Assembly (NCBI GenBank): GCA_019359725.1
Contig: JAHHGR010000042.1
Coordinates: 1 to 40,402, forward strand
DNA length: 40,402 bases
Direction: 5' to 3'
Source: Aphanocapsa lilacina HA4352-LM1
GTDB taxonomy: Bacteria > Cyanobacteriota > Cyanobacteriia > Gloeobacterales > Gloeobacteraceae
Position numbers and translations under genes: made by a program. Under the pieces are notes generated by a model. That model was not told where the DNA came from, did not search any database, and worked only from the letters and a program-made list of their open reading frames with translations. Positions 1 through 14,860 of this stretch are shown here, piece after piece (position 1 is the first letter of the stretch; each line of letters starts with the position of its first letter).

Positions 1-32
1 CGCTCTAGTAGGGTAAGCTGGCTGAAGCTCAT
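1..32 (-). CDS. IS30-like transposase, N-terminal fragment cut by the window edge
   Basis: Reverse-strand ATG at 30-32, preceded by AGGA with a six-base gap. Only about ten residues are visible (MSFSQLTLLER). They parallel the right-hand copy at 40375 (MSYSQLTLP) and resemble the MxYxQLTxxxR opening common in IS30-family DDE transposases. Function is inferred from this start and from the repeated element end; the catalytic part lies outside the window. Confidence 0.5.
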   Translation of the reverse strand, partial: MSFSQLTLLE

Positions 33-127
33 AGGGGTTCCTGTTTGTCGTAGTAAACGTCAGGATACCTCTATGAGTCCCTCAGCGGAAGGCTCTCAAG
101 CGTTGCACTTCATTTTTGAATCGGCGA
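1..127. mobile_element. End of an IS30-like insertion sequence (left copy, continues out of the window)
   Basis: The first 127 bases match, with about two mismatches after the first few bases, the reverse complement of the last 123 bases of the window. Similarity stops sharply after base 127 here and at 40280 on the right, so that is the likely element boundary. The conserved block holds a non-coding end, a Shine-Dalgarno-like AGGA and the start of a reverse-strand gene beginning MSFSQLTL, which resembles the start of IS30-family transposases. The family assignment rests on those few residues and the terminus. Confidence 0.65.
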
Positions 128-208
128 TTGCGCTTAAATTGGGGCCAAAATTTCTAATCAAAGCCCACAAAGGCCAACAGTTCCGCGAGAGGGCCGAAGG
201 TCTCAAAG

Positions 209-224
209 CGGGTTGTAGAACCCG
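209..224 (-). terminator. Possible terminator hairpin after tRNA-Gly
   Basis: CGGGTT (209-214) and AACCCG (219-224) form a six-pair stem with a four-base loop, about ten bases past the 3' end of the reverse-strand tRNA. Read on the reverse strand it is followed by CTTTG, so the U-tract is weak. The rest of 128-234 shows no gene. Confidence 0.35.
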
Positions 225-234
225 AAAGGCTTGA

Positions 235-305
235 AGCGGGTGGTGGGAATCGAACCCACAACTACAGTTTGGAAGACTGTGGTTTTACCACTAAACTACA
301 CCCGC
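235..305 (-). tRNA. tRNA-Gly (anticodon TCC)
   Basis: The reverse strand folds as a full cloverleaf. The acceptor stem is GCGGGTG/CACCCGC, the D-arm GTTT...AAAC, the anticodon stem ACAGT/ACTGT with loop CTTCCAA (anticodon TCC, reads GGA), and the T-arm GTGGG-TTCGATT-CCCAC. The discriminator base is T and CCA is not encoded. A TATAAT box lies 12 bases upstream in the palindrome at 316-348. The IS30-like end stops about 107 bases beyond its 3' end. Confidence 0.95.
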
Positions 306-315
306 GGCGCCTGGA

Positions 316-348
316 CATTATAGCCCGCGCATGCGCTGGGCTATAATG
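316..348. promoter_or_regulatory. Palindromic divergent promoter between tRNA-Gly and the Zn-PLC-like gene
   Basis: CATTATAGCCC (316-326) and GGGCTATAATG (338-348) are perfect reverse complements, and the centre GCGCATGCGC is itself palindromic. Each arm holds a consensus TATAAT: at 342-347 for the forward gene, and the complement at 317-322 for tRNA-Gly, with correct spacing to the tRNA start. No good -35 box is visible for either direction. It could alternatively act as a hairpin or operator. Confidence 0.55.
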
Positions 349-436
349 CCCAAACTTTGCGGTCCTGCCGACGGGGATTGGTCGTAATTGAAACAGGACC
401 ACACCGGGTCCGCGCACCCCCCGAAAGGACACAGCC

Positions 437-1606
437 ATGGACCAAAAAGAAGGCGCAGGACACCACAAGATCACCGAGGAAGCGACCCGCAAGCTGTTTG
501 AGACGCGCGACACCATCGACGGCATGGGCCAGCAGGAGTACTTCCAGCAACTCGACGAAGGCCAGGAGTTCGCCGATCGCAGCCCCATCAGCAGCCCGCT
601 CGACTGGGGGGAGACCTGGAAGCCGCACTGGATGGCCGAGGGCGCCCAGCGCGAACACAGTATGGCGGACCCGAACCTGAGCCCCGAGCAGAACCTGCAG
701 GCCATGCGCAGTTTCGTAGGTGGACAGCTCAATAACGCCCACGCCGCCCACAGCGCCTCGCGCGATTTTTCTGCCCTGGACGGCGACGGCGACGGCCATT
801 TGACCGGTTCTGAGATCAAAAGCGGCATGGGCAACGAGAAACTCGCCCAATCGGCAGCCTACCTGAGCCGCGAACTGGGCACGCTCGAAGAGCTGAGCAA
901 CGACGAATTGGGCGACGAGAACGACGGGCTCACCCGCAAAGACCTCCAAAAAGCGGAAATGCGCAGCCTCGGGGCCGCCACCCACGCCCTCGAAGACAGC
1001 TACAGCAGTGCCCACATGTTCCGCGACACCACCGACCCGTCCGATCCCCACGCCAGGGTCGAAGGCCTCAACGTCTTCAATCCGCTCGATGAGGAGACGA
1101 CGACAGGGGTGGCAGGCGGGGCCGCCGTTGGAGCGCTGTTTGGTGGACTGGCAGGGGCGCTCGTCGGCGCGGTTGCAGGCGGGATCATCGGGGTCGGCCA
1201 GGATGAAGATATGGGCACCCACGATCACCGCTTCGACGAAATGCCGGTGGACGAGGAAGGCCGTCTGGCGCGCGCCTCGGACCTGGCCGCGGCGGAGGCG
1301 TCCGCCGAGATGCTCTCCACGTACTACGAACACCGCGACGACGAAGACGCTGCGGCCCACCAGGCGTTCGCGGATAATGTCGCTTCTTTCTATCGGGCGA
1401 GCGACCAGGGTGTGAGCGTCTTCGAAGACAACGACGATCCGGCCTGGCAGCAGGAGCGCGACGAGCGGCTCAACGCCACCAACAATGTCGCCGACTACGA
1501 CGGGGTGGGCGGGACGTGCGAAGAGGAGGCGAGCCCAACGGCTTCTGAAGTGCCAGACTCAGGCCAGTACGAGTCCTGGGAACCCGAGCAGGAAATTTGC
1601 GAATAA
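437..1606 (+). CDS. Zn-dependent phospholipase C/P1-nuclease-like protein with EF-hand and glycine zipper
   Basis: A 389-residue acidic protein with no signal peptide. The metal-ligand pattern of Bacillus zinc phospholipase C is present in order: H9 (HxxIxxxA, like His14), D47 and H64 (like Asp55/His69), H183-x3-D187-x5-H193 (spacing identical to His118/Asp122/His128), and H264-x3-E268 (like His142/Glu146). The N-terminal Trp ligand is absent. A canonical EF-hand loop spans D115-E126, with a degenerate second loop near 160. About 70 residues, including a glycine zipper at 224-254, separate the last two ligand pairs, where the classical enzyme has about 13. Glycine zippers often insert into or assemble in membranes. 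A membrane-active lipase or toxin-like effector is an inference. The ATG follows GAAAGGA. The gene stands alone downstream of the palindromic promoter. Confidence 0.7.
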   Translation: MDQKEGAGHHKITEEATRKLFETRDTIDGMGQQEYFQQLDEGQEFADRSPISSPLDWGETWKPHWMAEGAQREHSMADPNLSPEQNLQAMRSFVGGQLNNAHAAHSASRDFSALDGDGDGHLTGSEIKSGMGNEKLAQSAAYLSRELGTLEELSNDELGDENDGLTRKDLQKAEMRSLGAATHALEDSYSSAHMFRDTTDPSDPHARVEGLNVFNPLDEETTTGVAGGAAVGALFGGLAGALVGAVAGGIIGVGQDEDMGTHDHRFDEMPVDEEGRLARASDLAAAEASAEMLSTYYEHRDDEDAAAHQAFADNVASFYRASDQGVSVFEDNDDPAWQQERDERLNATNNVADYDGVGGTCEEEASPTASEVPDSGQYESWEPEQEICE

Positions 1607-1642
1607 TCGGTAGGTACTGTGCCCTACCCCCCGGCACTCCCA

Positions 1643-2326
1643 TCAGGGCCGGTCTTTGAGCTTGAGTTCCTGGAGCCGGGCGCGCAGGCGGGCCATAAAA
1701 CCGGCCCCAGGATCGCTCTTGCCGGTGAAATACCCCGCCTGCCGCTCGCGCCAGAGGGGACTGCCGCGAAAGCGGCCGTACTCGTGGTGACCAATCAAAT
1801 AGTCGATCGGGTGGCGGGCGGCCAGATCCCGCACCAGCCAGGCGTTGGCCGCCAGTTGAGCGTCGGTGAGCGCCCGGCGGGGGCCGCCGATATTTTCGAT
1901 GCCGATGGCCATCCAGTTGAGGCCAATCACGTGGCGGGCCAGGCGCTTTTCATCCATCAGCCGGTAAATCGTGCCGTCGCGATCCACCACGAAGTGGGCG
2001 GAGACGTTCAGGGCGCCGCCTTTTTGGATGTCGGCGCGGGCGGACGGCAGCCGGTCGGGAGTGAAGGTGGCAAAGGCGCTTGTCAAGTTTCCGTCGCCAG
2101 TCCAGTGCACCACCACCATCCGGGGGATAATGGCGATGTCCCTGGCTTCGGGATCGTAGTGCAGGCGGATGTAGTCGAGGGTAAGGGCGCGGCGGGCCGG
2201 ACCGAAGGGGATCGGCCTGTCGACCACCCGCGGCTCGGTGGCCCCGGCGGCGGTACAGAATAGGCCGAGCCCCAATAGCACGCTCAAGAAGGGTAGGCGC
2301 ATGGCAGTGCCAAATCTGACGGCCAT
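1643..2326 (-). CDS. Exported N-acetylmuramoyl-L-alanine amidase (Amidase_2/AmpD fold)
   Basis: Hydrolyses the amide bond between MurNAc and the stem peptide, in the periplasm or outside the cell. A hydrophobic signal segment (about residues 10-29, ending near TAAGA) leads into a zinc amidase domain. Visible motifs are VVVHWT (H74, first zinc ligand), HFVVDRDGTIYRL, the GIENIG glutamate, IGHHEYG and a KSDPGAGF tail carrying the usual Asp ligand. Met9 (base 2302) is an alternative start that gives a more typical signal peptide. It is divergent from the next gene with only 17 bases between the longest starts, so the two promoters must overlap. Confidence 0.88.
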   Translation of the reverse strand: MAVRFGTAMRLPFLSVLLGLGLFCTAAGATEPRVVDRPIPFGPARRALTLDYIRLHYDPEARDIAIIPRMVVVHWTGDGNLTSAFATFTPDRLPSARADIQKGGALNVSAHFVVDRDGTIYRLMDEKRLARHVIGLNWMAIGIENIGGPRRALTDAQLAANAWLVRDLAARHPIDYLIGHHEYGRFRGSPLWRERQAGYFTGKSDPGAGFMARLRARLQELKLKDRP

Positions 2327-2343
2327 TCTACCGGCCCGCTACG

Positions 2344-2766
2344 GTGCACAATGGAGGCATGTTCGGAACTTTTCAACAGTCAACTGTGCGCGTGCAGGTG
2401 GCGGCAAACGGTGCCATCCTCAAGCGCTGCCTCACCGAGTTTGCGCTTTTGCGCCGCTGGGCCTGGACCCAGCGCTATCCCGACAGTCTGCCAAAGGCGA
2501 TTGATGCGGGGCTCGAATTCGATTCCTATGCCGGTCCGGTTAAGCTCAGCCACAAAGTCGGCGCATTGACCGACAACCGCCTGGAGATGGTGCTGTGGAA
2601 CGGCGTCGACGGCTACAGCCGCTGGCTGTGGGGCGACGGCTGGGTACAAAGCACGATCGAAGGGGTCTCGCTGCTGCCGCTGGCGCTGGGTCAAACGATT
2701 CTGCTGGATAGCCTCGCGCGCTTCGCGACCGCACTCGAAACCGAGCAAACCCAACAACCCGCCTGA
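2344..2766 (+). CDS. Small SRPBCC-like conserved protein
   Basis: A 140-residue soluble protein. Its opening (MFGTFQQSTVRVQVAANGAI then LKRCLTEFALLRRW) and central LSHKVGALTDNRLEMVLWNGVDGYSRWLWGDGWVQSTIEGVSLLP resemble short cyanobacterial SRPBCC/polyketide-cyclase-like proteins, which bind hydrophobic ligands. The similarity is from memory and the ligand is unknown. Starts: GTG at 2344, or ATG at 2359; GGAGG lies only one base before the ATG, so the GTG is also plausible. It may share a promoter region with the amidase. Confidence 0.6.
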   Translation: MHNGGMFGTFQQSTVRVQVAANGAILKRCLTEFALLRRWAWTQRYPDSLPKAIDAGLEFDSYAGPVKLSHKVGALTDNRLEMVLWNGVDGYSRWLWGDGWVQSTIEGVSLLPLALGQTILLDSLARFATALETEQTQQPA

Positions 2767-2856
2767 ATCCGGCGGCCGAGTCGGGAATCGACCGGCATCC
2801 TTTAAACTAAGGACGGCCACGGATGGGCAAGACAGCCGCTGATACGGAGAACGCTA

Positions 2857-4371
2857 TTGCTGCTTCCTAGAGCGAGTGGAATCCTCCTGCACCCGACCAG
2901 CCTGCCGGGTCCCTACGGGATCGGCAGTTTGGGCAGCGAGGCCCGTGAATTTATCGATCTGATGGCGCTCACCGGCCAGCGCTTCTGGCAGATCCTGCCT
3001 CTGGCACCGACCGGCTACGGTAACTGCCCCTACATGTCCTGCTCGGCTTTCGCAGGAAACCCGCTGCTGGTGGACCCGGAGGATCTGGTGGCGCAGGGAC
3101 TCATCGACAAAGACGACCTGGCACCGGACGAGCTGAAGACGACCGCCGGCTGGCATCACCCGAAGATCAACTTCGAGGAGGCCATCGCCTACAAGACACG
3201 TTTGCTCGAGACCGCCTGCGAAAACTTTGCCGCCAAAAGCGACAACGACAAAAAACTTTTTTGGGCCTACTGCGAGCGCGAGGGCTGGTGGCTCGACGAT
3301 TACGCCCTGTTCATGGCCCTCAAAGAAGCGAACGACGCTCTGGCCTGGCAGGCGTGGGACCAGGGATTGGCCTTGCGCGAGGGGTCGGTCCTCAAGCAGC
3401 AGTCGCGCGAGTTGCGCGACCGGGTGTTCTATCACCAGTTCAGCCAGTATCTATTTTCCCGGCAGTGGAGTGCGCTCAAACAGTACGCCAACGGCCGCGG
3501 TGTGAGCATCCTGGGGGATCTGCCCATTTATGTCGCCGCCGACAGCGCCGATGTCTGGGCGCACCCGCACCTGTTTCAGCTCGACGAGAGCGGCAATCCG
3601 ACGGTGGTAGCCGGGGTACCGCCCGATTACTTCAGCGCCACCGGCCAGCTGTGGGGCAACCCGATTTACGACTGGGAGGCCATGGAGCGCAGCGGCTACG
3701 CCTGGTGGATCAACCGCATCAAGCGCATGCTGGACATGGTGGACCTGGTGCGCATCGACCACTTTCGCGGCTTCGAATCGTACTGGGAAGTGGAAGCGGG
3801 TCAGACGACGGCCATCGACGGCCGCTGGGTCAAAGGCCCCGGCCCACAACTGTTCGATGCGATCGAAAAGGCCCTGGGCAGCCTGCCGGTGGTGGCGGAG
3901 GATCTGGGGGTGCTCACCGACGAGGTCGAGACACTGCGCGATCGCTATGGACTATTCGGCATGAAGGTGCTGCAGTTTGCCTTCGACGGCATGGCCAACA
4001 ACATCCACCTGCCCCACAACCACGTGCGCAGCGCCATCGTCTACACCGGCACCCACGACAACGATACGACCGTGGGCTGGTACAACCACTCGCCGCGCTG
4101 GGTGCACGAGGCGACCGAGCGCTATCTCTACCTCAATACCGGCTGGGAAATCCACTGGGCGTTGGTGCGCTGCGCCCTCGCCTCGGTGTGCAATCTGTCG
4201 ATCGTGCCGATGCAGGATCTGCTGGGTCTGGGCAGCGAGGGGCGCATGAATATCCCCGGCGTGGCGGAGGGCAACTGGGACTGGCGGGTCGGCACCTTCG
4301 AGGCGGTTGAACCCTGGATGCGCGAGCGTCTGGCGGATTTGACGGCTCTTTACGGCCGTTGGCCGGGCTGA
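2857..4371 (+). CDS. malQ: 4-alpha-glucanotransferase (amylomaltase)
   Basis: GH77 enzyme that transfers alpha-1,4-glucan segments between maltooligosaccharides in glycogen breakdown. At 504 residues it has the usual bacterial length and opens with ASGILLHPTSLPGPYGIGSLG. Catalytic residues are visible: nucleophile D301 in VRIDHFRGFE, acid/base E348 in VAEDLG, and D401 in GTHDND. The C-terminus keeps MQDLLGLGSEGRMNIPG. The TTG start at 2857 follows GGAGA at a good distance and sits directly at the conserved N-terminus. It is probably transcribed alone or with the small gene before it. Confidence 0.97.
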   Translation: MLLPRASGILLHPTSLPGPYGIGSLGSEAREFIDLMALTGQRFWQILPLAPTGYGNCPYMSCSAFAGNPLLVDPEDLVAQGLIDKDDLAPDELKTTAGWHHPKINFEEAIAYKTRLLETACENFAAKSDNDKKLFWAYCEREGWWLDDYALFMALKEANDALAWQAWDQGLALREGSVLKQQSRELRDRVFYHQFSQYLFSRQWSALKQYANGRGVSILGDLPIYVAADSADVWAHPHLFQLDESGNPTVVAGVPPDYFSATGQLWGNPIYDWEAMERSGYAWWINRIKRMLDMVDLVRIDHFRGFESYWEVEAGQTTAIDGRWVKGPGPQLFDAIEKALGSLPVVAEDLGVLTDEVETLRDRYGLFGMKVLQFAFDGMANNIHLPHNHVRSAIVYTGTHDNDTTVGWYNHSPRWVHEATERYLYLNTGWEIHWALVRCALASVCNLSIVPMQDLLGLGSEGRMNIPGVAEGNWDWRVGTFEAVEPWMRERLADLTALYGRWPG

Positions 4372-4387
4372 TCCTGGCCGTGCTAGC

Positions 4388-5032
4388 TTGGTGTTTCTTT
4401 GGCCGAAGTCCTTGGTTGTTGTGGAAGCGATTGATCTGATTTATCCGGTAAAACTGCCGGTCGCCGAGAAGCGGCTGCCCGCTTTCGAGCGGCTGCAGGC
4501 GGCGTTGGTGATTGGCGGGCAGGCGCGGTTGGTGCCGCGGCTGGTAGTCACCGGGCTTGGACCGGGCGGCGAGCTGCTCGAAGCCCAGCCAATCTTCGGC
4601 CACGAACTATTCAACCTCGGCCTGACGCAGATGATTGGCGGCTACGGCGGGCATTGCCTGCTGATGGCAGTCGGAGTCCAGGCGAGCCTTGAGCCGATGG
4701 GTCTGTTGCTCGACAGTCTGGCGGTGCAGGCTTTTCACCTCGTGCAATCGCGGCGAGCGGGCGACGGCCGCGAGAAGCTGCTGGAGCAACTGCGAGCGGA
4801 GCTGTTTTTGAAGGTGCCCAACGCCGGTCCGCTGGACTTGTTGCGCACCGAAGAGGTGATAGGCCGCTGCTGGCGCGAGTTGCTCAACCACCGCGAAGCT
4901 TTTGGCCGGTTGCGCTCGGACCTGCAGCACGACCTGCAGCGGGCTTTGCAAAGCGGCCCGACACCGCAGTGGACTTGGCGGATCACGCTACTGAACGGCC
5001 GGCTGCGCGCCCGCCAGGTGGCGACGCGCTAG
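4388..5032 (+). CDS. Uncharacterised protein
   Basis: A 214-residue soluble, Leu/Arg-rich protein not recognised as a known family. The second half (about 115-190) is predicted helical and charged, and the first half is rich in beta-type residues (VVVEAIDLIYPVKLP, LVIGGQARLVPRLVVTG). It begins 16 bases after malQ, so co-transcription is likely. The start is uncertain: TTG 4388, GTG 4391 and GTG 4421 all fit, and no clear ribosome site decides between them. Codon pattern in this frame looks genuine, unlike the opposite strand. Confidence 0.55.
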   Translation: MVFLWPKSLVVVEAIDLIYPVKLPVAEKRLPAFERLQAALVIGGQARLVPRLVVTGLGPGGELLEAQPIFGHELFNLGLTQMIGGYGGHCLLMAVGVQASLEPMGLLLDSLAVQAFHLVQSRRAGDGREKLLEQLRAELFLKVPNAGPLDLLRTEEVIGRCWRELLNHREAFGRLRSDLQHDLQRALQSGPTPQWTWRITLLNGRLRARQVATR

Positions 5033-5141
5033 AGCGGTTGAATACCGAGCCAACCCGGCTCGGCAAGCAGCGATCTCCGCCCGGATGGTTGTTGGTAGGA
5101 TTGGGGGATCGCCCTGGTGGGGCGAGCCAGTCGGGAGGTTC

Positions 5142-5549
5142 ATGGCAGCTATGGGTTGGATGGTTCGAGTCGGGCTGGTCGCTACCCTGCTCGCCGCGGC
5201 TGGTTGCCGGGATCTGCAAATCGAGCCGGCAAAAATCGAAATCGCCGATCTGGCGGTGGCGCCCTGCGACACCAACATTTTGCTCAGCCTGCCCCCCAAC
5301 GAGCGCAAGGTCCATTGCTACGAGGTCCAGGGCACCGCCTTCAACCCGAGTCCCCGGGAACTGCGCAAGGTGAATCTCTACGGCGTCATCGAGGACGCCG
5401 AGGGCACCATCGTCCGCGAGGGCCGCATCGGCAGCCTGCCCGACCTGGGGCAGGGCAGGAAGATGCCTTTTTCGGTACGCGTGTTCTTTATCCAGGAACT
5501 GCGCGAACCGCTCAAACTAGACGCCTTTCGCGCCAAGGGGCTCACCTGA
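5142..5549 (+). CDS. Lipoprotein with FxLYD-like beta domain
   Basis: About 135 residues. A short signal segment ends in LLAAAGC, a lipobox whose Cys would be lipid-modified, placing the protein on a membrane face. The remainder (ELRKVNLYGVIEDAEGTIV, then LPDLGQGRKMPFSVRVFF) has the look of FxLYD-type domains that follow lipobox signals. The ligand is unknown. The ATG at 5142 is chosen because GGGAGG lies four bases upstream; an in-frame start at 5085 would bury the signal peptide. Its stop overlaps the end of the convergent permease gene by eight bases. Confidence 0.7.
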   Translation: MAAMGWMVRVGLVATLLAAAGCRDLQIEPAKIEIADLAVAPCDTNILLSLPPNERKVHCYEVQGTAFNPSPRELRKVNLYGVIEDAEGTIVREGRIGSLPDLGQGRKMPFSVRVFFIQELREPLKLDAFRAKGLT

Positions 5550-6444
5550 GGCCCACAGGCGGCGCTGGTTTTTCGGCATAGCCGGCTTTGCGGTCCTGCC
5601 AGAGACGGGTGAGCAGTCCCTGGCGGGGACTGAACAAAAAGGCCAGCACAAAGCAAGCGATCGAGACCACCACCACCGCTGGACCGGAGGCGATATCCAG
5701 GTAATAGCTCAAGTACAAGCCCACCAGGCTTGCGACGGCCCCGAGCAAGACCGCGAGGCCCATCATCGAGGGCAGGCGACGGGTGAGCAGATAGGCCGTA
5801 GCACCGGGAGCAATCATCAAGGCGATCACCAGCACCACCCCCACCGACTGCATCGAGGCGACGATGGTGAGGGCAATCAGGCTCATCAACACCAGGTGCA
5901 ACGCCTCGGTGGGCAGTCCTGCCGCCTTCGCCCCGAGCGGGTCGAAGCTGTGGAAGAGCAATTCTTTAAACAGCAGCAGGATGGTCGCCACCACGGCGGC
6001 GGAGATGACGGCCGTGGCGAGCAGGTCCGACTCGCTTACCCCCAGGATGTTGCCGAACAGAAAGTGCATCAAGTCGACTTTCGTCTCGCTCTGGATCTTG
6101 GTGATCAAGATGATGCCGGTGGCAAAAAAGCCCGAGAAGACCAGGCCCATCGCCGTGTCCTCTTTGATCTTCGAGTGGGTATGAATGTAACCAATCAGAG
6201 CGGTGGAGAGCACCCCGGCGATGAACGCCCCCACGAAGATGTTGCCGCCCACGATAAAGGCGATGGCAAGCCCCGGCATCACCGCCCGGCTCACCGCATC
6301 CCCCAACAGCGCCAGTCGCCGCACGATCAGGTAGCTGCCGGTAATGGCACAGATGGTACCCACCAGCAAGGCCGAGAGAAGCGCCCGCTGCATAAACGGG
6401 TAGCGCAGCGGCTCGGCGAGCCATTCAAGCCAGCCCATTTCCAC
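5542..6444 (-). CDS. Mn/Zn-type ABC transporter permease (ABC-3 family), left module
   Basis: A 300-residue integral membrane protein with about eight to nine hydrophobic helices, carrying ABC-3 hallmarks: RRLALLGDAVSRAVMPG, then FFATGIILITKIQ and ALMIAPGATAYLLTRRL. It forms the channel for a divalent metal delivered by the binding protein at 7197-8213. Its ATG shares one base with the upstream ATPase stop (6444), so translation is coupled. It is paralogous to the permease at 9163-10212, sharing IVGGNIFVG/LLYVNIFVG and a TKIQxExKVxLxxFLFGNILG block. Confidence 0.95.
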   Translation of the reverse strand: MEMGWLEWLAEPLRYPFMQRALLSALLVGTICAITGSYLIVRRLALLGDAVSRAVMPGLAIAFIVGGNIFVGAFIAGVLSTALIGYIHTHSKIKEDTAMGLVFSGFFATGIILITKIQSETKVDLMHFLFGNILGVSESDLLATAVISAAVVATILLLFKELLFHSFDPLGAKAAGLPTEALHLVLMSLIALTIVASMQSVGVVLVIALMIAPGATAYLLTRRLPSMMGLAVLLGAVASLVGLYLSYYLDIASGPAVVVVSIACFVLAFLFSPRQGLLTRLWQDRKAGYAEKPAPPVGLR

Positions 6445-7175
6445 TAGCGCCCGCCCCCCGAATAGACGAAGCGGCCCGGCAGACCGCCGTAGGCTGCCGC
6501 CAGGTTCGCTTCAGTAAAGACGTCTTTGCGGGGACCGAAGGCCACCACCCGGTTGCGCAACAGCAAAATGTCGTCGTAGTGATCCACCGCCTCGCCCAGG
6601 TCGTGGTTGACCACCAACAGCGTTTTGCCCTCGTCGCGCAGCTGCCGGAAAATCGCAAACAGCACCGCCTCGGTGGTCTGATCCACTCCCACAAACGGTT
6701 CATCGAGAAACAACCAGTCCGCCTGCTGCGCTAGGGCGCGGGCCAGAAACACCCGCTGCTGCTGACCACCGGACAGTTCGCCTATCTGGCAATCGGCGTA
6801 CTCGGTCATCCCCACCCGTTCGAGGGCCGATTTCACCGCTTCGCGGTCAGGCCGGCCGGGCCGACGCAGCCAGCCGATGTGGCGGCAGCGGCCCATCATC
6901 ACCACGTCCGCGACCGTCGCCGGGTAGTCCCAATCGACCGCCGTGCGCTGGGGCACATAAGCGACGCGGTGCAGCTGCTGCCTGAGCGGCCGGCCGTCCA
7001 GGGCGACCGTACCCCCGGCGGGGATCAGATCCAGTACCGCCTTGATGAGCGTCGATTTGCCGGCGCCGTTCGGACCGATGATCCCCACGATCCGCCGCGG
7101 CGCAACCGCAAGATCCACCTGGGTAAGCGCCAGATTCTGGCGGTAGCGGACAAAAAGATTGGCGATGGTGAGCAT
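6444..7175 (-). CDS. Mn/Zn-type ABC transporter ATP-binding protein, left module
   Basis: A 243-residue ATPase that powers metal import. Walker A is GPNGAGKST, the Q-loop is VPQRTAVDWDYPATV, the signature is LSGGQQQRVFLARAL, Walker B is WLFLDEPFVGVD, and the switch His is in VVNHDLG. The DWDYP and MGRCRHIGWLRRP elements are typical of the MntA/ZnuC/TroB group. It starts 21 bases after the binding-protein gene and overlaps the permease by one base, giving the operon order binding protein, ATPase, permease. Confidence 0.96.
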   Translation of the reverse strand: MLTIANLFVRYRQNLALTQVDLAVAPRRIVGIIGPNGAGKSTLIKAVLDLIPAGGTVALDGRPLRQQLHRVAYVPQRTAVDWDYPATVADVVMMGRCRHIGWLRRPGRPDREAVKSALERVGMTEYADCQIGELSGGQQQRVFLARALAQQADWLFLDEPFVGVDQTTEAVLFAIFRQLRDEGKTLLVVNHDLGEAVDHYDDILLLRNRVVAFGPRKDVFTEANLAAAYGGLPGRFVYSGGGR

Positions 7176-7196
7176 GGCGTTCGGGTGTCAGGAAAA

Positions 7197-8213
7197 TTAC
7201 TTGCCGGCGGAAGGGGGGACGAAGGCGGTGTAGGTGCCGCCCAGCGCTTCGACGATCGTGCGGGTATTGGCGGTGAGCATCTTGATGTAAGTATCCCCCG
7301 CCGTCCCTGACGCCCCGACCGAATCGGAGTAGAGAGTACCGCCGATTTTGACCCCCGCGTCGCGCGCAAGCGACTGCAACAGCTCGGGGGCGGTGGAAGT
7401 CTCGATGAACACGGCGCGCACCTGCTCTTTGCGAATCTTCTCGACCAGGTCGGCGATCTTGCGCGCACTTGGCTCCTCCTCAGTGGATACCCCAAGAATG
7501 GAGCCAGTCACCGGTAGGCCGTAGGCGCGGCCATAGTACTGAAAGGCGTCGTGGGAGCTGACCAGCTTGCGGTTGGCCTCGGGGATCGTGGCGATTTGCT
7601 CCCGGATCCAGCCGTCGAGGGCTTCGAGGTCCTTGCGGTAGCGCGCGGCGTTCGCTGCGAAGCGCTCCTTGTCTTTCGGAAAAGTTTCCACCAGACTCTT
7701 CTCGATCGCGCTCACGTACCGCACACCGTTCGCCGCCGAACCCCAGGCGTGCGGGTCCGCCGCCACGATGCCCGCCGTTTTCTCCAATTTGTATGGCTTG
7801 ATACCCCCCGCTTCGGCCACCGGAACCTTAGGAGCGGGGTTCTGGGTGGCCCCGATCAGCTTCACCAGTTGCGGCTCCAGGTTGAAGCCGTTGTAGAGCA
7901 CCAGGTCCGCCCGCGAGAGCACCCGCGAGTCGCCCGGCGAAGGCTCGTAGACGTGCGGGTCGGCGCCGGGCTTCAAAATACTGTATATGCTGTAGCCGTC
8001 TCCAGCGACCGTGCGGGTCATGTCCGCCAGGATGGTGCTGGTGGCAGCTACCTTCGGTTTGTCGCTACTGAGGAAGGCTTCGTACTGACTGCCGGTGCCC
8101 TGCTGGGCATCCTGGGCATCACCGCCGGGGGGCGGGCCGCCCGCGCAACCCGCAAACAGCAACCCAATTAACAGAGAAAGTAACCATAGTCCGCGCCTTT
8201 TGCCCCGCACCAC
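7197..8213 (-). CDS. Metal-binding lipoprotein of ABC transporter (ZnuA/TroA/MntC family)
   Basis: A 338-residue cluster A-I solute-binding protein. The signal segment ends in the lipobox LLFAGC (Cys23). Metal ligands by alignment to the family are H87 (DPHVYEP), H155 (DPHAWGS), H221 (SSHDAF) and D297 (YSDSVG). This His-His-His-Asp set is the ZnuA/TroA type; the MntC/PsaA type has Glu at the third place. The His-rich loop usual in ZnuA is missing, so Zn versus Mn cannot be settled. The start is GTG 8213, because GGGAGGG lies eight bases upstream; a frame extending to 8309 lacks such a site and would displace the signal peptide. This is the only binding protein near two transport modules. Confidence 0.93.
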   Translation of the reverse strand: MVRGKRRGLWLLSLLIGLLFAGCAGGPPPGGDAQDAQQGTGSQYEAFLSSDKPKVAATSTILADMTRTVAGDGYSIYSILKPGADPHVYEPSPGDSRVLSRADLVLYNGFNLEPQLVKLIGATQNPAPKVPVAEAGGIKPYKLEKTAGIVAADPHAWGSAANGVRYVSAIEKSLVETFPKDKERFAANAARYRKDLEALDGWIREQIATIPEANRKLVSSHDAFQYYGRAYGLPVTGSILGVSTEEEPSARKIADLVEKIRKEQVRAVFIETSTAPELLQSLARDAGVKIGGTLYSDSVGASGTAGDTYIKMLTANTRTIVEALGGTYTAFVPPSAGK

Positions 8214-8241
8214 CGCCTGTCCCTCCCGCAACGTCGGCAAA

Positions 8242-8261
8242 ATCATGAAAAGATCATGAAA
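8242..8261. promoter_or_regulatory. Tandem direct repeat, candidate regulator site
   Basis: ATCATGAAA occurs at 8242-8250 and again at 8253-8261, a period of 11 bases (about one helical turn). It lies 29 bases before the binding-protein start, in the region between the two divergent metal-transport operons. Such phased direct repeats suit a dimeric response regulator. No regulator is identified. Confidence 0.35.
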
Positions 8262-8295
8262 TCTCTCTCCATCAAACCTCGGCCACAGGCTGTGC

Positions 8296-8312
8296 GCAAT
8301 GGGTAACATTGC
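8296..8312. promoter_or_regulatory. Dyad GCAATG-N5-CATTGC, candidate metal-regulator operator
   Basis: Perfect six-base arms with a five-base centre, in the shared regulatory region of the divergent ABC operons. Its size fits operators of MntR/Fur-like dimers, but it does not match a consensus I can quote with certainty. Confidence 0.35.
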
Positions 8313-8336
8313 TCAATCTTTCGCAACGAGGCGATC

Positions 8337-8350
8337 CCCGATCGATCGGG
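8337..8350. promoter_or_regulatory. 14-bp perfect palindrome in the divergent control region
   Basis: CCCGATCGATCGGG, followed on the forward strand by a T-rich stretch (8353-8370). It lies about 87 bases before the forward ATPase start. It may be an operator or, less likely, a short terminator hairpin for a leader transcript. The rest of 8214-8436 has no gene. Confidence 0.35.
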
Positions 8351-8436
8351 CAATTGTTTTATTTTTGTTTCACTCTTTAGAAATCGCTGGTAACGTGGTA
8401 GTTGGCGATCCTTGCGTATTACTAATCTCAATTTTC

Positions 8437-9150
8437 ATGTTGTCAGTACGCGACCTCAACGTGAGCTACGGCCTGCGCCCGGCCCTGGAGCGGGTGAGTT
8501 TCGGTGTAGAGGCCGGGCGGCTGGTAGGGGTGGTAGGCCCGAACGGCGCGGGCAAATCGACACTGGTGAAGGCGATCATGGGTGTGGTGCCCCGCCGCTC
8601 AGGCGCGGTGCTGTTGGAGGGTGAACCCTTGGAGAAGGTGCGCGAGCGGGTTGCCTACATTCCCCAGCGCGCGGGTATCGATTGGGATTTTCCGGCCCTG
8701 GTGCGCGAGGTGGTGGCGATGGGCTGCGTGCCGCGCATGGGCTGGCTCGCTCGGCCGGCGCGCGCGGACCGCGCACGGGTGGAGGCGGCCATCGAGCGGG
8801 TGGGCCTTACGGATCTGGCCCATCGGCGCATCGGCGAACTCTCCGGTGGCCAGCAGCAGCGGGCCTTCATCGCCCGCGCCCTGGTGCAGCAGGCGCGGTT
8901 GTTTTTGTTCGACGAACCCTTCGCGGGCGTCGATCAGTACACCGAGCGGGCGATTTTGGGGATTTTCGAGCAACTGCGCGATGCGGGTTGTGCTCTGCTT
9001 ATCGTCAACCACGACCTGGGGGACGTGGTGCGCCGCTACGACGATCTGTTGATTTTGCGCGGCGAGGTGGTCGCCTACGGGCCGCGCGAGGACGTCTTTA
9101 CCCAGGCCAATCTCAACCGGGCCTACCTGGGTCCGGTGGCTGCCGTCTAG
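8437..9150 (+). CDS. Mn/Zn-type ABC transporter ATP-binding protein, right module
   Basis: A 237-residue ATPase closely paralogous to the one at 6444-7175. Walker A is GPNGAGKST, the Q-loop is IPQRAGIDWDFPALV, the signature is LSGGQQQRAFIARAL, Walker B is LFLFDEPFAGVD, and the His-switch is IVNHDLG. The two share the tail pattern YGPREDVFTxANLxxAY. ATG 8437 is chosen because the conserved MLSVRDLNVSYG opening begins there; upstream in-frame sequence is AT-rich and not protein-like. It is followed 12 bases later by its permease. No binding protein is encoded in this operon, so it probably shares the one from the left module or uses a distant partner. Confidence 0.93.
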   Translation: MLSVRDLNVSYGLRPALERVSFGVEAGRLVGVVGPNGAGKSTLVKAIMGVVPRRSGAVLLEGEPLEKVRERVAYIPQRAGIDWDFPALVREVVAMGCVPRMGWLARPARADRARVEAAIERVGLTDLAHRRIGELSGGQQQRAFIARALVQQARLFLFDEPFAGVDQYTERAILGIFEQLRDAGCALLIVNHDLGDVVRRYDDLLILRGEVVAYGPREDVFTQANLNRAYLGPVAAV

Positions 9151-9162
9151 GAGGGACAGGCT

Positions 9163-10212
9163 GTGCAGGAGCTGTGGCAGTCGCTGGTGGGCTTTGTAAA
9201 TCTGTGGGTCGAACCGCTCGGCTATGAGTTCATGGTCAGAGCCTTAATTTCGGCGGTCCTAGTCGGTTCGCTGTGCGCGGTGATGGGCAGCTATCTGGTG
9301 GTGCGGCGGCTCTCGCTGTTGGGCCTGGTGGTCTCCAACTCGGTGGTGCCGGGGATCGCGGTGGCCTTCTTGCTCTACGTCAACATCTTCGTAGGGGGCT
9401 TCATCTCGGGGATCCTAGCTACGGTGGGCCTCGGTTGGCTGCAGGGCAAGACGCGCATCAAAGAGGACGCGGCGATGGGCGTGGTGCTCTCGACTTTCTT
9501 TGGCCTGGGCATCTTGCTCATCACCAAAATCCAGGCCGAGCGCAAGGTCAACCTCAACAACTTTCTGTTCGGCAACATCCTGGGCATCAACGCCTCCGAC
9601 TTGATCACCAGCGCCGGGATCGCGGCGGTGGTGCTGCTGGCGGTCTGGGCGCTCTACAAAGAATTCTTGCTGCTGAGCTTCGACGCGCAGTGGGCGGCGG
9701 CGGCGGGGTTGCCCACCCGGGCGCTCCACTACGCGATGATGGCGCTCACGGCCCTCACGGTGGTCGCATCGATGCAGGCGGTCGGGGTGGCCCTCACCAT
9801 TGCCTTGATGGTGATCCCAGCGGCGACCGCCTCTCTGCTCACCAATCGACTGGCTACGATGATGGGCCTCTCCGTGGGCCTTGGGGTAACTTCCAGCGTC
9901 GTTGGTCTGTACTTGAGCTACTACCTCAACCTGTCCTCCGGCCCGACCATCACCCTGGTGAGTGCCCTGCTCTTTGCCGCCGTGGTGCTCGCAGGACCGC
10001 TGTTGCTCAAGGTGCCCACCGGCAGCTTTCTCGGCCGCCTCAAGGGAATGGTGGTGCTCGAAGGAGCCTCCGGCGCGGTGCCGCCCTCCGAACCGGCTAC
10101 CCCGGCACCGCAGCCCGCAGCCCCGGCGGGCAAACCGGCAATGCGCATTGTGCGCGACAGCGACGGCCGATTGAGTTTGCAACCCGACCAACCGAGCGGG
10201 GTGGAGCGATGA
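9163..10212 (+). CDS. Mn/Zn-type ABC transporter permease, right module, with long cytoplasmic tail
   Basis: A 349-residue ABC-3 permease with conserved RRLSLLGLVVSNSVVPG, FFGLGILLITKIQAERKV and IALMVIPAATASLLTNRL segments. It is about 50 residues longer than its left paralogue. After the last helix (about 280) comes a Pro/Ala-rich tail (about 300-330) ending in a charged stretch. The GTG start follows GGAGGG. Its stop overlaps the next gene's start as ATGA, so the cyclophilin is translationally coupled to it. Confidence 0.93.
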   Translation: MQELWQSLVGFVNLWVEPLGYEFMVRALISAVLVGSLCAVMGSYLVVRRLSLLGLVVSNSVVPGIAVAFLLYVNIFVGGFISGILATVGLGWLQGKTRIKEDAAMGVVLSTFFGLGILLITKIQAERKVNLNNFLFGNILGINASDLITSAGIAAVVLLAVWALYKEFLLLSFDAQWAAAAGLPTRALHYAMMALTALTVVASMQAVGVALTIALMVIPAATASLLTNRLATMMGLSVGLGVTSSVVGLYLSYYLNLSSGPTITLVSALLFAAVVLAGPLLLKVPTGSFLGRLKGMVVLEGASGAVPPSEPATPAPQPAAPAGKPAMRIVRDSDGRLSLQPDQPSGVER

Positions 10213-11777
10213 GCGCGGTAGAACAAAAAATCAACGAACTGGAGCAGCTCACCCAGACTGCCGAGTTTCAGGCCCTGCCCCCGGAGGAGCGCCGCCGGAT
10301 TCTTGACGACTATTACCGGCGGGAACTGGCCCCGGCCTCGGTCGACCGCGCCAGCTTCGACAGGATCTTCGCCGCCGCCTGGCAGGCTCCGCCACCTCCC
10401 AAAGCAGCCTCTGAGCGCAAGCAGCTTAACCTCACCCCGGTGTGGTTGACCCTGGGGCTGGTGGGTGTGACGGCCGTTGCGCTCACGGGCCTGGTGTTCT
10501 GGACGAATAATTTGCAGGATATCAGCACCCAGGACGATGCGACCCTGATCAAGAGCCTGCGCGGCGGCGACCCGGTGCGCGAAGACGAAGTGGCCCTGCG
10601 CCGCTCGCTACCGGATACCGGTCCAGAAGTCTGGGAGATTGAAAAGGCCCTGGAGCGGATCGCCGAACCGATCAAAGACGGCGGCTGGCTCGAGGCGAAG
10701 GAGCGCACCGCTCGGGTGGTCGATTTGCTCAACCGCTACGAACCGCAGATCCTCAGCCGTGTTCCGGCCGGTGCGCGCGCACCGGCCGTGCAGGCGATTG
10801 CCCAGGTGCGCAGCAACATCCGCACCCTCGAAGACAAGATTCAGGCAAAGGACATCACCGGTTCGACCCTCCAGGCGCGGCGGACTTTCTGGTATCTCGA
10901 CTTATTGGAACTGGCGCTCCTCGATGAGTTCCGGCCCGAGGTGCCCGCCGAGTACCGCAATTTGCCCAGACTGGAGGGCGGCTGGGCGATGGTGCGCTTC
11001 ACCACCGACCGCGGCCCCTTCGTGGCCCTGGTAGACGGCTTCAACGCCCCGGTGACCGCCGGCAACTTTCTAGATCTGGTGCAACGGGGCTTCTACAACG
11101 GCCTCAAGATCACCCGCGCCGAGCGGTTCAACCTGGTGCAGACGGGTGACCCCAGCGGCAAGGGCACCGGCGGCTTCACCGACCCGGCCACCGGCAAACT
11201 GCGCACCATCCCGATGGAGGTGCGCCCGGCGCGCAAAGAAGCCGAGATCACCGCTTCGCAGGTCATCCAGCGGCGCGTCGACTACGTCCAGGACCGCTTC
11301 GAACTCGACCCCATCAAGCTGCGCGCGGAGATGGGCAACCTGCATAAGCGCTATATTGCTGACGACTGGAAAGCTGTGCCCTACGGCAAGACCATCCAGA
11401 GCTACCCAGCGCTGTACTACGGCCCGCCGGGAGTGTTCTCGATGGCGCGCTACGAAAAAGACCCGAATTCCGCCTCCAGCCAGTTTTTTATCTCCTTTTC
11501 CGACCCCGAACTCAACCCGACCGGCAAGAACCTCTCCGACGGCAAGTACGCCAACTTCGGCTATATCACCCAGGGAATCCGCACCGTCCGCCAGCTCAAA
11601 GTGGGCGATACCATTCAAAAAGCCGAGATCTTGAACTGCAAAGCAGCGGCCTTTAACGAGTACCGCGAACTGCCCCCGGCGGGCTCTTCGATGTACGCCA
11701 CCCGCGAAGGCCCCGCCACCAATCTGGAGACCAGTTGCCTGCCCCTGCCCGCGCCTCGCCTGGTGAGCGGTCGCTAG
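10209..11777 (+). CDS. Membrane-anchored cyclophilin-type peptidyl-prolyl isomerase
   Basis: A 522-residue protein that catalyses cis-trans isomerisation of prolyl bonds. A cytoplasmic helical N-terminus (1-75) is followed by one membrane helix (about 77-99), a helical region (105-250) and a cyclophilin domain (about 255-477) with GFNAPVTAGNFLDLVQRGFYNG and SSQFFISFSD. It carries an insertion between those blocks. The architecture resembles the cyanobacterial/chloroplast TLP40-type isomerases, which act on the lumenal or periplasmic side. The ATG at 10209 overlaps the permease stop; upstream sequence in this frame is only the shadow of the permease. Confidence 0.9.
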   Translation: MSAVEQKINELEQLTQTAEFQALPPEERRRILDDYYRRELAPASVDRASFDRIFAAAWQAPPPPKAASERKQLNLTPVWLTLGLVGVTAVALTGLVFWTNNLQDISTQDDATLIKSLRGGDPVREDEVALRRSLPDTGPEVWEIEKALERIAEPIKDGGWLEAKERTARVVDLLNRYEPQILSRVPAGARAPAVQAIAQVRSNIRTLEDKIQAKDITGSTLQARRTFWYLDLLELALLDEFRPEVPAEYRNLPRLEGGWAMVRFTTDRGPFVALVDGFNAPVTAGNFLDLVQRGFYNGLKITRAERFNLVQTGDPSGKGTGGFTDPATGKLRTIPMEVRPARKEAEITASQVIQRRVDYVQDRFELDPIKLRAEMGNLHKRYIADDWKAVPYGKTIQSYPALYYGPPGVFSMARYEKDPNSASSQFFISFSDPELNPTGKNLSDGKYANFGYITQGIRTVRQLKVGDTIQKAEILNCKAAAFNEYRELPPAGSSMYATREGPATNLETSCLPLPAPRLVSGR

Positions 11778-12163
11778 GCCTGGGTATACTGGGCCTGTCC
11801 GGCCCCCAGGCGAGGTGTACGGCGGTGACCTTTATGCAGCCCGCTTACCCACTGCCGCCCAGGATAGACACCTGGCCCAAATTGGGCACAGTCCCGTTCA
11901 GAAGGCCAGGGTTCACCTGTGCCTCTCAATCGTGCTCTGTCTTCTGGACCCTGCACTGTATAGACAGTCCAATGCAAAGGCTTATCCCTTTTCCGGCAGG
12001 ATCATCACCCGCAGGAACGTCACTTCGGGTTCACCAAATTGCCCACATTGCTCTGAAAGAAACGGCAAGCTCCGCCAGGCGTCAGCATGGCTAGCTGCGC
12101 CTCGGCGGGGACTTTTTGGGATGGGTTCGAGCTTGTGGCCGTCGGGATCTTCTTGAAACTGCC
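11778..12163. other. Gene-free interval between the cyclophilin gene and valS
   Basis: A convergent interval of 386 bases. Open frames here read as low-quality shadows without ribosome sites. A strong two-part hairpin lies at 11778-11811: GCCTGG/CCAGGC outside and GGGCC/GGCCC inside. It has no T-run but may end or protect the cyclophilin transcript. Nothing else recognisable. Confidence 0.5.
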
Positions 12164-14860
12164 CTAATTTTCCAGCCGCGCCAACTGCTCCGCCAGGATC
12201 GCCGCTTGAGCCCTCTGCTCGGCGAGTTTGGCGCGGCTTTCGGTCACCAGTTCGGCCGGGGCATTCGCCAGGTAGCTCTCGTTCCCCAGCCGGGCGGCGA
12301 GCACGCCACTTTCTTTCTCCAGCTTTTCGAGGGAGCGCCTGATCTTCCCCGCCAGGGCCGCCACATCCACCAGCCCGCCCAAAGGCAGTATTACCTGCAC
12401 GGTACCGGCCACACCCACCGCCACCTGCTTGAGGTGCTCGTCGGCCACCTCTTCGAGGGACAATTGCTCGACGCGGCCCAGATAGGCAATGGCCTGGCGG
12501 GTCGCGTCGATGGCGGCGCGCTCCTCGGCATTGCGCGAAGCCAGGCGCACCGCGGGCAGGGTGCGCAAAGGCGGCACCTGGGCAAAGGCGCGCAGGTTGC
12601 GGATCGCGCGCACCACCTGCTGCATCAGCGCAAATTCGGGCGGGACTGTTTCGGGTAGACCCTCGCCCGTGGGAAAAGGCTGCAGGCAAATCGAAGCCAC
12701 CCCATCGGGCTGGTGGAGCAACTGCCAGATCTCTTCGCTCAGGTGCGGCATCCAGGGGTGCAGCAGGCGCAGGGTCTGATCGAGCACAGCCGCCAGCACC
12801 TGCTGGGCGCCCCTGCGCGTCTCAAGCGCTTCTAAACGGGGCTTGGCCAGCTCCACGTACCAGTCGCAAAAATCGTCCCAGATAAATTCGTACAGGACGC
12901 GCGCCGCCTCTCCGAGGGCGTAGCGCCCGAGCATCTGATCGATCTGGCGGGCCGTCTGCCCGAGCCGCCCTAAGATCCAGCGATCTTCGAGGGTGAGCGC
13001 ACCCGGCTCCGGCAGCCCCCCCAGTTGACCGGGAGTCCATTCGTCCAGATTCATCAGCACAAAGCGGCTGGCGTTCCAGATTTTGTTGGCGAAGCGCTTG
13101 CTCGCATCGACTGCCCCCGATTCGCCCGTCTTGCGGTTGTAGTCAAAGCGCACATCCTGTCCGGCCCCCGTCACCTCGCGCACGAGGGTGTAGCGCAGAG
13201 CGTCGGTGCCGTACTTGTCCATCATTTCGATGGGGTCGATGCCGTTGCCCTTGGTCTTCGACATCTTCTGGCCTTTTTCGTCGCGCACCAGGCCGTTGAT
13301 GTAGACGGTCTCAAAAGGAATCTGGCCCGTAAATTCGCCCGCCATCATCGCCATGCGCGCCACCCAGAAGAAGATGATGTCGAACCCGGTCGACATCAGC
13401 ACGTTCGGGTAAAAGACTCCCAGATCCTCGGTCTGGTCGGGCCAGCCCAGGGTGGTAAACGGCCACAGCGACGAGCTGAACCAGGTGTCGAGCACGTCTT
13501 GATCGCGCTGGAGCTGCACATCCGTCCCGTAGCGCTCACGGGCGACGGCGAACGCTTCCGCTTCGTCGTGGGCCACCACGTACTCGCCCTCGCTTCCGGC
13601 CACAAACCAGGCGGGAATCCGGTGCCCCCACCACAGTTGCCGGGAGATGTTCCAGGGACGGATGCGCACCAGCCAATCGCGGTAGACCTTGCCCCAGCGC
13701 TCGGGCACGAAGGCGGGCTGATTCCGGCTGTCGAAAGCTTCGAGCACCCGCGCGGCCATCCCCGACACATCGAGAAACCACTGATCCGACAGGTACGGTT
13801 CGATGGGCACGCCCCCCCGCTCGGAGTAAGGCACGTTGTGGACGTGATCTTCGATGCCCACCAGCCAGCCTTCGGCCGCGGCCCGTGCGACCACCTGTTT
13901 GCGCACCACGAAGCGATCGAGCCCTGCGTAGGGACCGGCGTTCTCGTTGTAAGTGCCGTTCGGGTTAAGCAGGTTGATCATCGGCAAACCATGGCGTTTG
14001 CCGATTTCAAAGTCGTTCGGGTCGTGGGCGGGGGTGACTTTGACCGCCCCGGTGCCAAATTCGCGATCCACCGCCTCGTCGCCCACGATCACAATGCGCC
14101 GCCCGAGGATCGGAAGTTCCGCTTCGCGGCCGATGAGGTGCTTGTAGCGCGGATCCTCCGGGTGCACGGCCACTCCCGTGTCCCCCAGCATCGTCTCGGG
14201 GCGGGTGGTTGCCACCACCAAAAATTCGTCGCTATCTGCCACCGGGTATCTGAGCTGCCACAGATGGCCTTTTTCTTCTTTATCGTCCACTTCCAGATCC
14301 GAGACTGCCGTCTGGGAAGCCGGGCACCAGTTGACCAGGGACTTGCCGCGGTAAATCAGGCCTTTGCGGTGTAGATCGATGAAGACTTTTACCACCGCCC
14401 GGTTGCGCTTTTCGTCGAGGGTAAAACTCTCGCGCGTCCAATCGAGCGAGAGCCCGAGACGTCGCAACTGGCCGCGGATGGTATCCTGAGACTGCTCTTT
14501 CCAGGCCCAGGCGCGCTCCAGGAAAGCCTCGCGCCCCAGATCGAAGCGGGTCTTGCCTTCTTGGCGCAGTTGTTTTTCAAGTACCGTGTGCACGGCGATG
14601 CTCGCGTGGTCGGTCCCCGGCAGCCAGAGGGTCTTGAAACCTTTCATGCGCCGGTAGCGCACCACCACGTCCGGTAGGGTGAAACAGAGGGCGTGGCCCA
14701 TGTGAAGCGAACCGGTGACGTTCGGGGGCGGCAGCACAAGGCTAAAAGGCTTCCCCGGGCCGTCGGCGGCGGGCGAAAAGAAGCGGTGCTCCTCCCAGAA
14801 GCGTTGCCAGCGAGGTTCGGCGTCAAATGGATCATATTGACTGGGTAGGGTGCGCGCCAT
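12164..14860 (-). CDS. valS: Valyl-tRNA synthetase
   Basis: An 898-residue class Ia synthetase that charges tRNA-Val and edits mischarged Thr. The class signature HMGH is at 53-56 (after PPPNVTGSL). The editing domain carries TTRPETMLGDTGVAV. The KMSKS loop appears as KMSKT (532-536). The anticodon-binding helical bundle and a C-terminal coiled coil (GKIRRSLEKLEKESGVLAARLGNE) complete the protein, which has normal length. The ATG start precedes MARTLPSQYDP. Transcribed alone, divergent from the PHP gene. Confidence 0.98.
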   Translation of the reverse strand: MARTLPSQYDPFDAEPRWQRFWEEHRFFSPAADGPGKPFSLVLPPPNVTGSLHMGHALCFTLPDVVVRYRRMKGFKTLWLPGTDHASIAVHTVLEKQLRQEGKTRFDLGREAFLERAWAWKEQSQDTIRGQLRRLGLSLDWTRESFTLDEKRNRAVVKVFIDLHRKGLIYRGKSLVNWCPASQTAVSDLEVDDKEEKGHLWQLRYPVADSDEFLVVATTRPETMLGDTGVAVHPEDPRYKHLIGREAELPILGRRIVIVGDEAVDREFGTGAVKVTPAHDPNDFEIGKRHGLPMINLLNPNGTYNENAGPYAGLDRFVVRKQVVARAAAEGWLVGIEDHVHNVPYSERGGVPIEPYLSDQWFLDVSGMAARVLEAFDSRNQPAFVPERWGKVYRDWLVRIRPWNISRQLWWGHRIPAWFVAGSEGEYVVAHDEAEAFAVARERYGTDVQLQRDQDVLDTWFSSSLWPFTTLGWPDQTEDLGVFYPNVLMSTGFDIIFFWVARMAMMAGEFTGQIPFETVYINGLVRDEKGQKMSKTKGNGIDPIEMMDKYGTDALRYTLVREVTGAGQDVRFDYNRKTGESGAVDASKRFANKIWNASRFVLMNLDEWTPGQLGGLPEPGALTLEDRWILGRLGQTARQIDQMLGRYALGEAARVLYEFIWDDFCDWYVELAKPRLEALETRRGAQQVLAAVLDQTLRLLHPWMPHLSEEIWQLLHQPDGVASICLQPFPTGEGLPETVPPEFALMQQVVRAIRNLRAFAQVPPLRTLPAVRLASRNAEERAAIDATRQAIAYLGRVEQLSLEEVADEHLKQVAVGVAGTVQVILPLGGLVDVAALAGKIRRSLEKLEKESGVLAARLGNESYLANAPAELVTESRAKLAEQRAQAAILAEQLARLEN

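Follow-up and report, generated by a model that had tools for sequence, protein, structure and literature searches.

This locus raises the question of what kind of protein combines metal-binding residues like those of a zinc-dependent phospholipase C (PLC) with an EF-hand and a glycine zipper, and where in the cell such a protein would act. The gene lies near the start of a contig of Aphanocapsa lilacina HA4352-LM1 (JAHHGR010000042.1), which was analysed over 40,402 nucleotides and is termed here the window. The preferred answer, to which we give an even chance of being correct as a whole, is a cytoplasmic and genus-specific protein of the Zn-PLC fold, predicted to act as an internal, calcium-tuned membrane hydrolase. 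The fold and the metal site are the stronger part of this reading, and the regulation and the role the weaker part. The features of the gene are the following:

437..1606, plus strand: open reading frame, 389 aa, of the PLC-fold protein that carries the EF-hand lobe and the glycine zipper; begins with ATG, M1 in 4/4 homologues
437..739, plus strand: N-terminal PLC-like part, residues 1-101, with the proposed ligands H9, D47 and H74, from the alignment; predicted helices at 7-21 and 32-48
743..961, plus strand: residues 103-175, probably a pair of EF-hands; the canonical loop lies at 115-126 (window 779-814) and, by reading, a degenerate second loop at about 156-170
953..1099, plus strand: candidate metal-site block, residues 173-221, with H183, D187, H193, H205 and E209, from conservation; residues 192-277 have pLDDT below 50
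1100..1198, plus strand: glycine zipper, residues 222-254, a possible membrane helix or hairpin, with eight Gly at 4-residue steps
1220..1240, plus strand: residues 262-268, carrying H264 and E268; H262 and E268 are invariant in 4/4, H264 is not
1253..1333, plus strand: long helix in the predicted structure, residues 273-299, near the end of the PLC structural match (residue 301)
1394..1603, plus strand: C-terminal tail, residues 320-389, pLDDT below 50

The reading frame first assigned to the gene stands, since its ATG is preceded by a Shine-Dalgarno-like AAAGGA (424-429, 7 nt before the start) and M1 is kept in the four aligned sequences. A promoter scan of window positions 300-1700 found no sigma-70-like site. 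The gene is flanked upstream by a tRNA-Gly gene on the opposite strand (235-305) and downstream by a convergent Amidase_2 gene (1643-2326). The protein is acidic (pI 4.3). It lacks a signal peptide, as had been claimed: the N-terminus (MDQKEG) is non-hydrophobic and the only 19-residue windows above 1.2 on the Kyte-Doolittle scale start at residues 221-238.

Homologues occur in 4 of 59 related genomes, the window's own included, and these are the four genomes of a single genus; the three other copies are 95%, 94% and 56% identical. Among the three close copies the whole-gene dN is 0.023-0.027 against a dS of 0.15-0.19, which indicates a maintained gene. For residues 258-389 the synonymous changes are too scarce to call that part alone maintained. 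When window positions 1-14000 were used as query, two other genomes of the genus matched over 10-11 kb, whereas only three stretches, all inside the gene, matched in the 56% relative, where the gene has different neighbours. An ORF that reads like an IS-element transposase lies immediately upstream of the gene in G003 (L002:357-1100).

Beyond the genus, 16 and 62 pattern-matching stretches in genome contigs, and 92 and 48 in viral contigs, gave no homologue confirmed (by tblastn for the genome contigs), and plasmids and phages gave no tblastn match at E 1. A profile of the whole protein (A1) matched 17 of 292 genomes drawn from the phylum at E 0.01. The match was full-length in the window's own genome only, and the other 16 were confined to the EF or zipper part and its surroundings. 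With residues 1-100 (A3), three of the 292 genomes matched at E 0.05, namely the own genome and two foreign ones at 0.016 and 0.049. With residues 173-221 (A2), 61 matched at E 1, own included, the best foreign value being 0.0016. In the preferred reading the protein is genus-specific and made in the cytoplasm.

The Zn-PLC-like fold proposed by the first-pass annotation was recovered in prediction: PLCs are the top matches in VIA structure searches from two models, both of low confidence. On the other hand, Foldseek returned no significant match for the predicted models, with all rows above E 0.6. The family profile did not bear out the assignment either, since the protein had no PF00882 row at a maximum E of 10, with most matches weaker than about 0.1 being lost to the search filters; genome G000 had no PF00882 match at E 0.01. 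The PC-PLC of B. cereus (1ah7/2fgn; PF00882) has the same predicted fold and the same order of the proposed ligands, at 14-16% identity on structural alignments. Unlike PC-PLC, the window protein has no PF00882 profile match, signal peptide or N-terminal Trp ligand, and carries an extra EF-hand lobe, zipper and tail. S1/P1 nucleases belong to the same superfamily as PLC and have a trinuclear Zn site; in P1 nuclease the last ligand pair is HxxxD, after a longer gap than in PLC. They were not among the matches listed in the VIA searches of either model. A common fold of S1/P1 nucleases and PLC is described in PMC3482391. No PLC, HET-C or VWA7 profile claims the protein, which is consequently classed as a PLC-fold relative outside both PF00882 and HET-C.

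Prediction and conservation together point to a helical PLC-type domain with an invariant His/Asp series in PLC order. The candidate metal-site block is the best conserved part of the protein, with 42 of 49 residues identical to the distant homologue, and H9, D47, H74, H183, D187, H193 and H205 are invariant in 4/4 homologues. The HxxxDxxxxxH block first pointed out is HALEDSYSSAH (residues 183-193), and its H, D and H are kept in all four sequences. Eight ligands had been named at that stage, in a series of which a relaxed form turns up in 247 of 20,000 shuffles. Six of them (H9, D47, H183, D187, H193 and E268) are conserved in 4/4, and two fail the refuting condition set at the outset, H64 and H264 being replaced by Y and K, respectively, in the 56% homologue. 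Judged from the alignment, the third His ligand would be H74, put forward in place of H64, and the last pair is probably H205/E209, rated well above H264/E268 though short of certainty. In both models H74, H193, H205 and E209 fall within stretches with pLDDT below 50 or border on them, H74 being inside such a stretch in the first. Codon 45 (window 569-571), two before the proposed ligand D47, encodes F in the window and H in the other three homologues.

His14 is a further metal ligand of PC-PLC. In this enzyme Zn1 is held by Asp55, His69, His118 and Asp122, Zn2 by His128, His142 and Glu146, and Zn3 by Trp1 with Asp122 (PMC10420013). The tighter series H183-x3-D187-x5-H193-x11-H205-x3-E209, present in the window protein and its two close copies, gives a spacing of x3, x5, x11, x3 against x3, x5, x13, x3 in PC-PLC. 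The 56% homologue (L004) has Q at 209, so the compact pattern is unmatched there. Shuffling produced this pattern, at a gap of 11-13, in 152 of 200,000 sequences, compared with 925 of 200,000 for the wide gap of 60-80 read at first. The loci gathered contain 604 distinct stop-to-stop frames with a length of 150 aa or more; four of these have the compact pattern and five the wide one. The four are the three copies of the PLC-like protein and L076, which entered the locus set through a PF00882 search and is related to PF00882 at E 5.3e-5.

The choice of the last pair decides where the zipper stands. The first-pass annotation had placed it in a stretch of about 70 residues between ligand blocks, against about 13 in the classical enzyme. 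If H205 and E209 are the ligands, the zipper is no insertion between ligand blocks and that claim is probably wrong. The zipper itself was correctly described, with Gly at 224, 228, 232, 236, 240, 244, 248 and 252 in exact 4-residue steps. Its GxxxG repeats lie in a hydrophobic stretch, matched by Pfam PF13441 at E 6.6e-4, under the curated cut-off, and form a helical hairpin in the second model, at very low confidence. Matches to prion, SMK toxin and PdsO/OmpA-type proteins fall on this zipper and were discarded, as were those to XopAW and lanmodulin, which fall on the EF stretch. The canonical EF-hand first noted occupies residues 115-126, with a loop pattern that arises in 37 of 20,000 shuffles; it is probably one of two hands that make up a lobe. 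Literature searches for a Zn-dependent phospholipase C with an EF-hand or glycine zipper, and for an S1-P1 nuclease or phospholipase C with an inserted calcium-binding domain, did not find either combination.

In the mechanism that we infer, H9, D47, H74, H183, D187, H193, H205 and E209 would coordinate two or perhaps three metal ions, and the site would cleave phosphate esters, lipid head groups being the most likely substrate. The EF-hand lobe appears to sit as an insertion in the hairpin that directly precedes the H183/D187 helix; calcium binding could therefore move this helix and tune the metal site. The glycine zipper, placed after the ligands and roughly at the later helices of PLC, may hold the enzyme at the membrane or insert it there. 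The enzyme would probably carry out a calcium-triggered hydrolysis of membrane lipids from inside, in remodelling, damage response or self-lysis. A more specific version, which we consider quite unlikely, unites a calcium sensor with a zinc phospholipase and a zipper hairpin in one polypeptide; calcium entering via a damaged membrane would activate it by moving the ligand-bearing helix, and the zipper would insert in the inner leaflet, leading to self-lysis or membrane remodelling. If the preferred reading is right, a cyanobacterium uses the Zn-PLC fold as an internal, calcium-coupled enzyme and not as a secreted lipase, and an EF-hand lobe directly continuous with the metal-site helix would give a testable model of how calcium controls lipid hydrolysis in bacteria.

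Several other explanations were weighed against this one. Should the last pair be H264/E268, the zipper would truly lie within the metal site, which would then be put together or disrupted by insertion into the membrane. H264-x3-E268 is present in the window protein and two close copies, with H262 and E268 invariant in 4/4, and the E209 to Q exchange leaves neither last pair fully conserved. However, K replaces H264 in the 56% homologue and the closer H205-x3-E209 fits the PLC spacing. Moreover, HxxxD/E occurs eight times in the protein, so that the HxxxE at 264-268 is weak evidence; where such pairs abound, a reading from motifs only can misplace ligands. This arrangement is regarded as unlikely. 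The protein may instead have been an enzyme once and now be a membrane protein that binds metal or calcium, with the fold kept and catalysis lost. Q209 in the distant homologue, the missing N-terminal Trp ligand and the missing family profile match speak for such a loss, to which the invariance of D47 and D187 and of the His residues proposed as ligands, and the strong conservation of the metal block, are opposed; we consider it improbable. Finally, the PLC likeness could be a chance match of helical bundles, with the His and Asp residues doing something else. The models have low confidence, the tool warns about helical bundles, the Foldseek search had no significant match, and HxxxDxxxxxH alone arises in 850 of 20,000 shuffles. 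On the other hand, the two models agree, PLCs stand out, their matches span almost the whole domain, and a separate sequence hint leads to HET-C-like proteins. We regard a chance likeness as very doubtful.

That hint comes from the 49-residue metal block, which in a profile search gives weak matches to cyanobacterial proteins that carry GAALHTLQDSFSKAH or GEALHLIQDSYSSAH; the one bearing GEALHLIQDSYSSAH has a weak VWA7_N match, below cut-off. Against three HET-C-like proteins hhalign gave a probability of 44% over 24 columns only, and against another pair of PLC-like proteins (A6) 0.5%, which is no support. HET-C, VWA7_N and Tox-HET-C domains (PF07217, PF25107), for which a relation to PLC/S1-P1 has been proposed, may share the HxxxD block with the window protein, the likeness being confined to about 24 residues. 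Neither PF07217 nor PF25107 matches the protein, and the window's genome has no match to VWA7_N (PF25107) at E 0.1 or to Het-C (PF07217) at E 0.01. Elsewhere, the cyanobacterial protein at L050:1-2445 has VWA7_N, Het-C and VWD matches over cut-off. Proteins with a G[YF]GLHSIQDAFAHGH block occur in other lineages of the phylum, at L055:1366-2667 (Zn_dep_PLPC match below cut-off) and L063:331-1734 (DUF6765 below cut-off).

The toxin/effector and membrane-inserting character first suggested for the protein could correspond to a delivered toxin of the HET-C or polymorphic type, for example the cargo of a contractile injection system whose zipper crosses the target membrane as in Tde1. A cyanobacterial system of this kind is said to be anchored in thylakoids; the genus of the window genome is early-branching and has none. 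Linkage of cargo to injection genes is common but not required. A literature search for Gloeobacter with such a system gave nothing beyond a toxin-database paper. HET-C domains have been proposed to be relatives of PLC/S1-P1 and to serve bacteria and fungi as toxins, in some cases within systems whose delivery is of the PVC type (PMC3482391). Delivery of the T6SS effector Tde1 needs a GxxxG motif (PMC10240207). Tde1 and the window protein both have a run of GxxxG repeats; the zipper of Tde1 is N-terminal (PMC10240207) and that of the window protein internal. Tde1 is a DNase. No secretion gene was seen beside the window gene. A contractile injection system may exist in the genus, as each of its four genomes (G000, G001, G002 and G003) has one tail sheath match, accompanied in G001 (L048:12338-15458) by Pvc16_N and gp19 tube genes by Pfam and further tube-like ORFs by reading. 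However, the PLC-like gene is not linked to these genes in G001, G002 or G003. The gene and the sheath lie at about 3,517 and 4,299 kb in G001, 3,879 and 3,517 kb in G002, and 3,041 and 530 kb in G003, which puts about 780 kb, 360 kb and 2,500 kb, respectively, between them. The presence of the gene in the whole genus with a low overall dN/dS, and the different neighbours in the distant species, also argue against delivery, which seems unlikely. The flanks, by reading, showed no partner, immunity or secretion gene. Further along the window, 5542-8309 and 8299-10212 hold two adjacent sets of genes for what look like ABC transporters of the metal type; the two copies cross-match at about 70-74% DNA identity.
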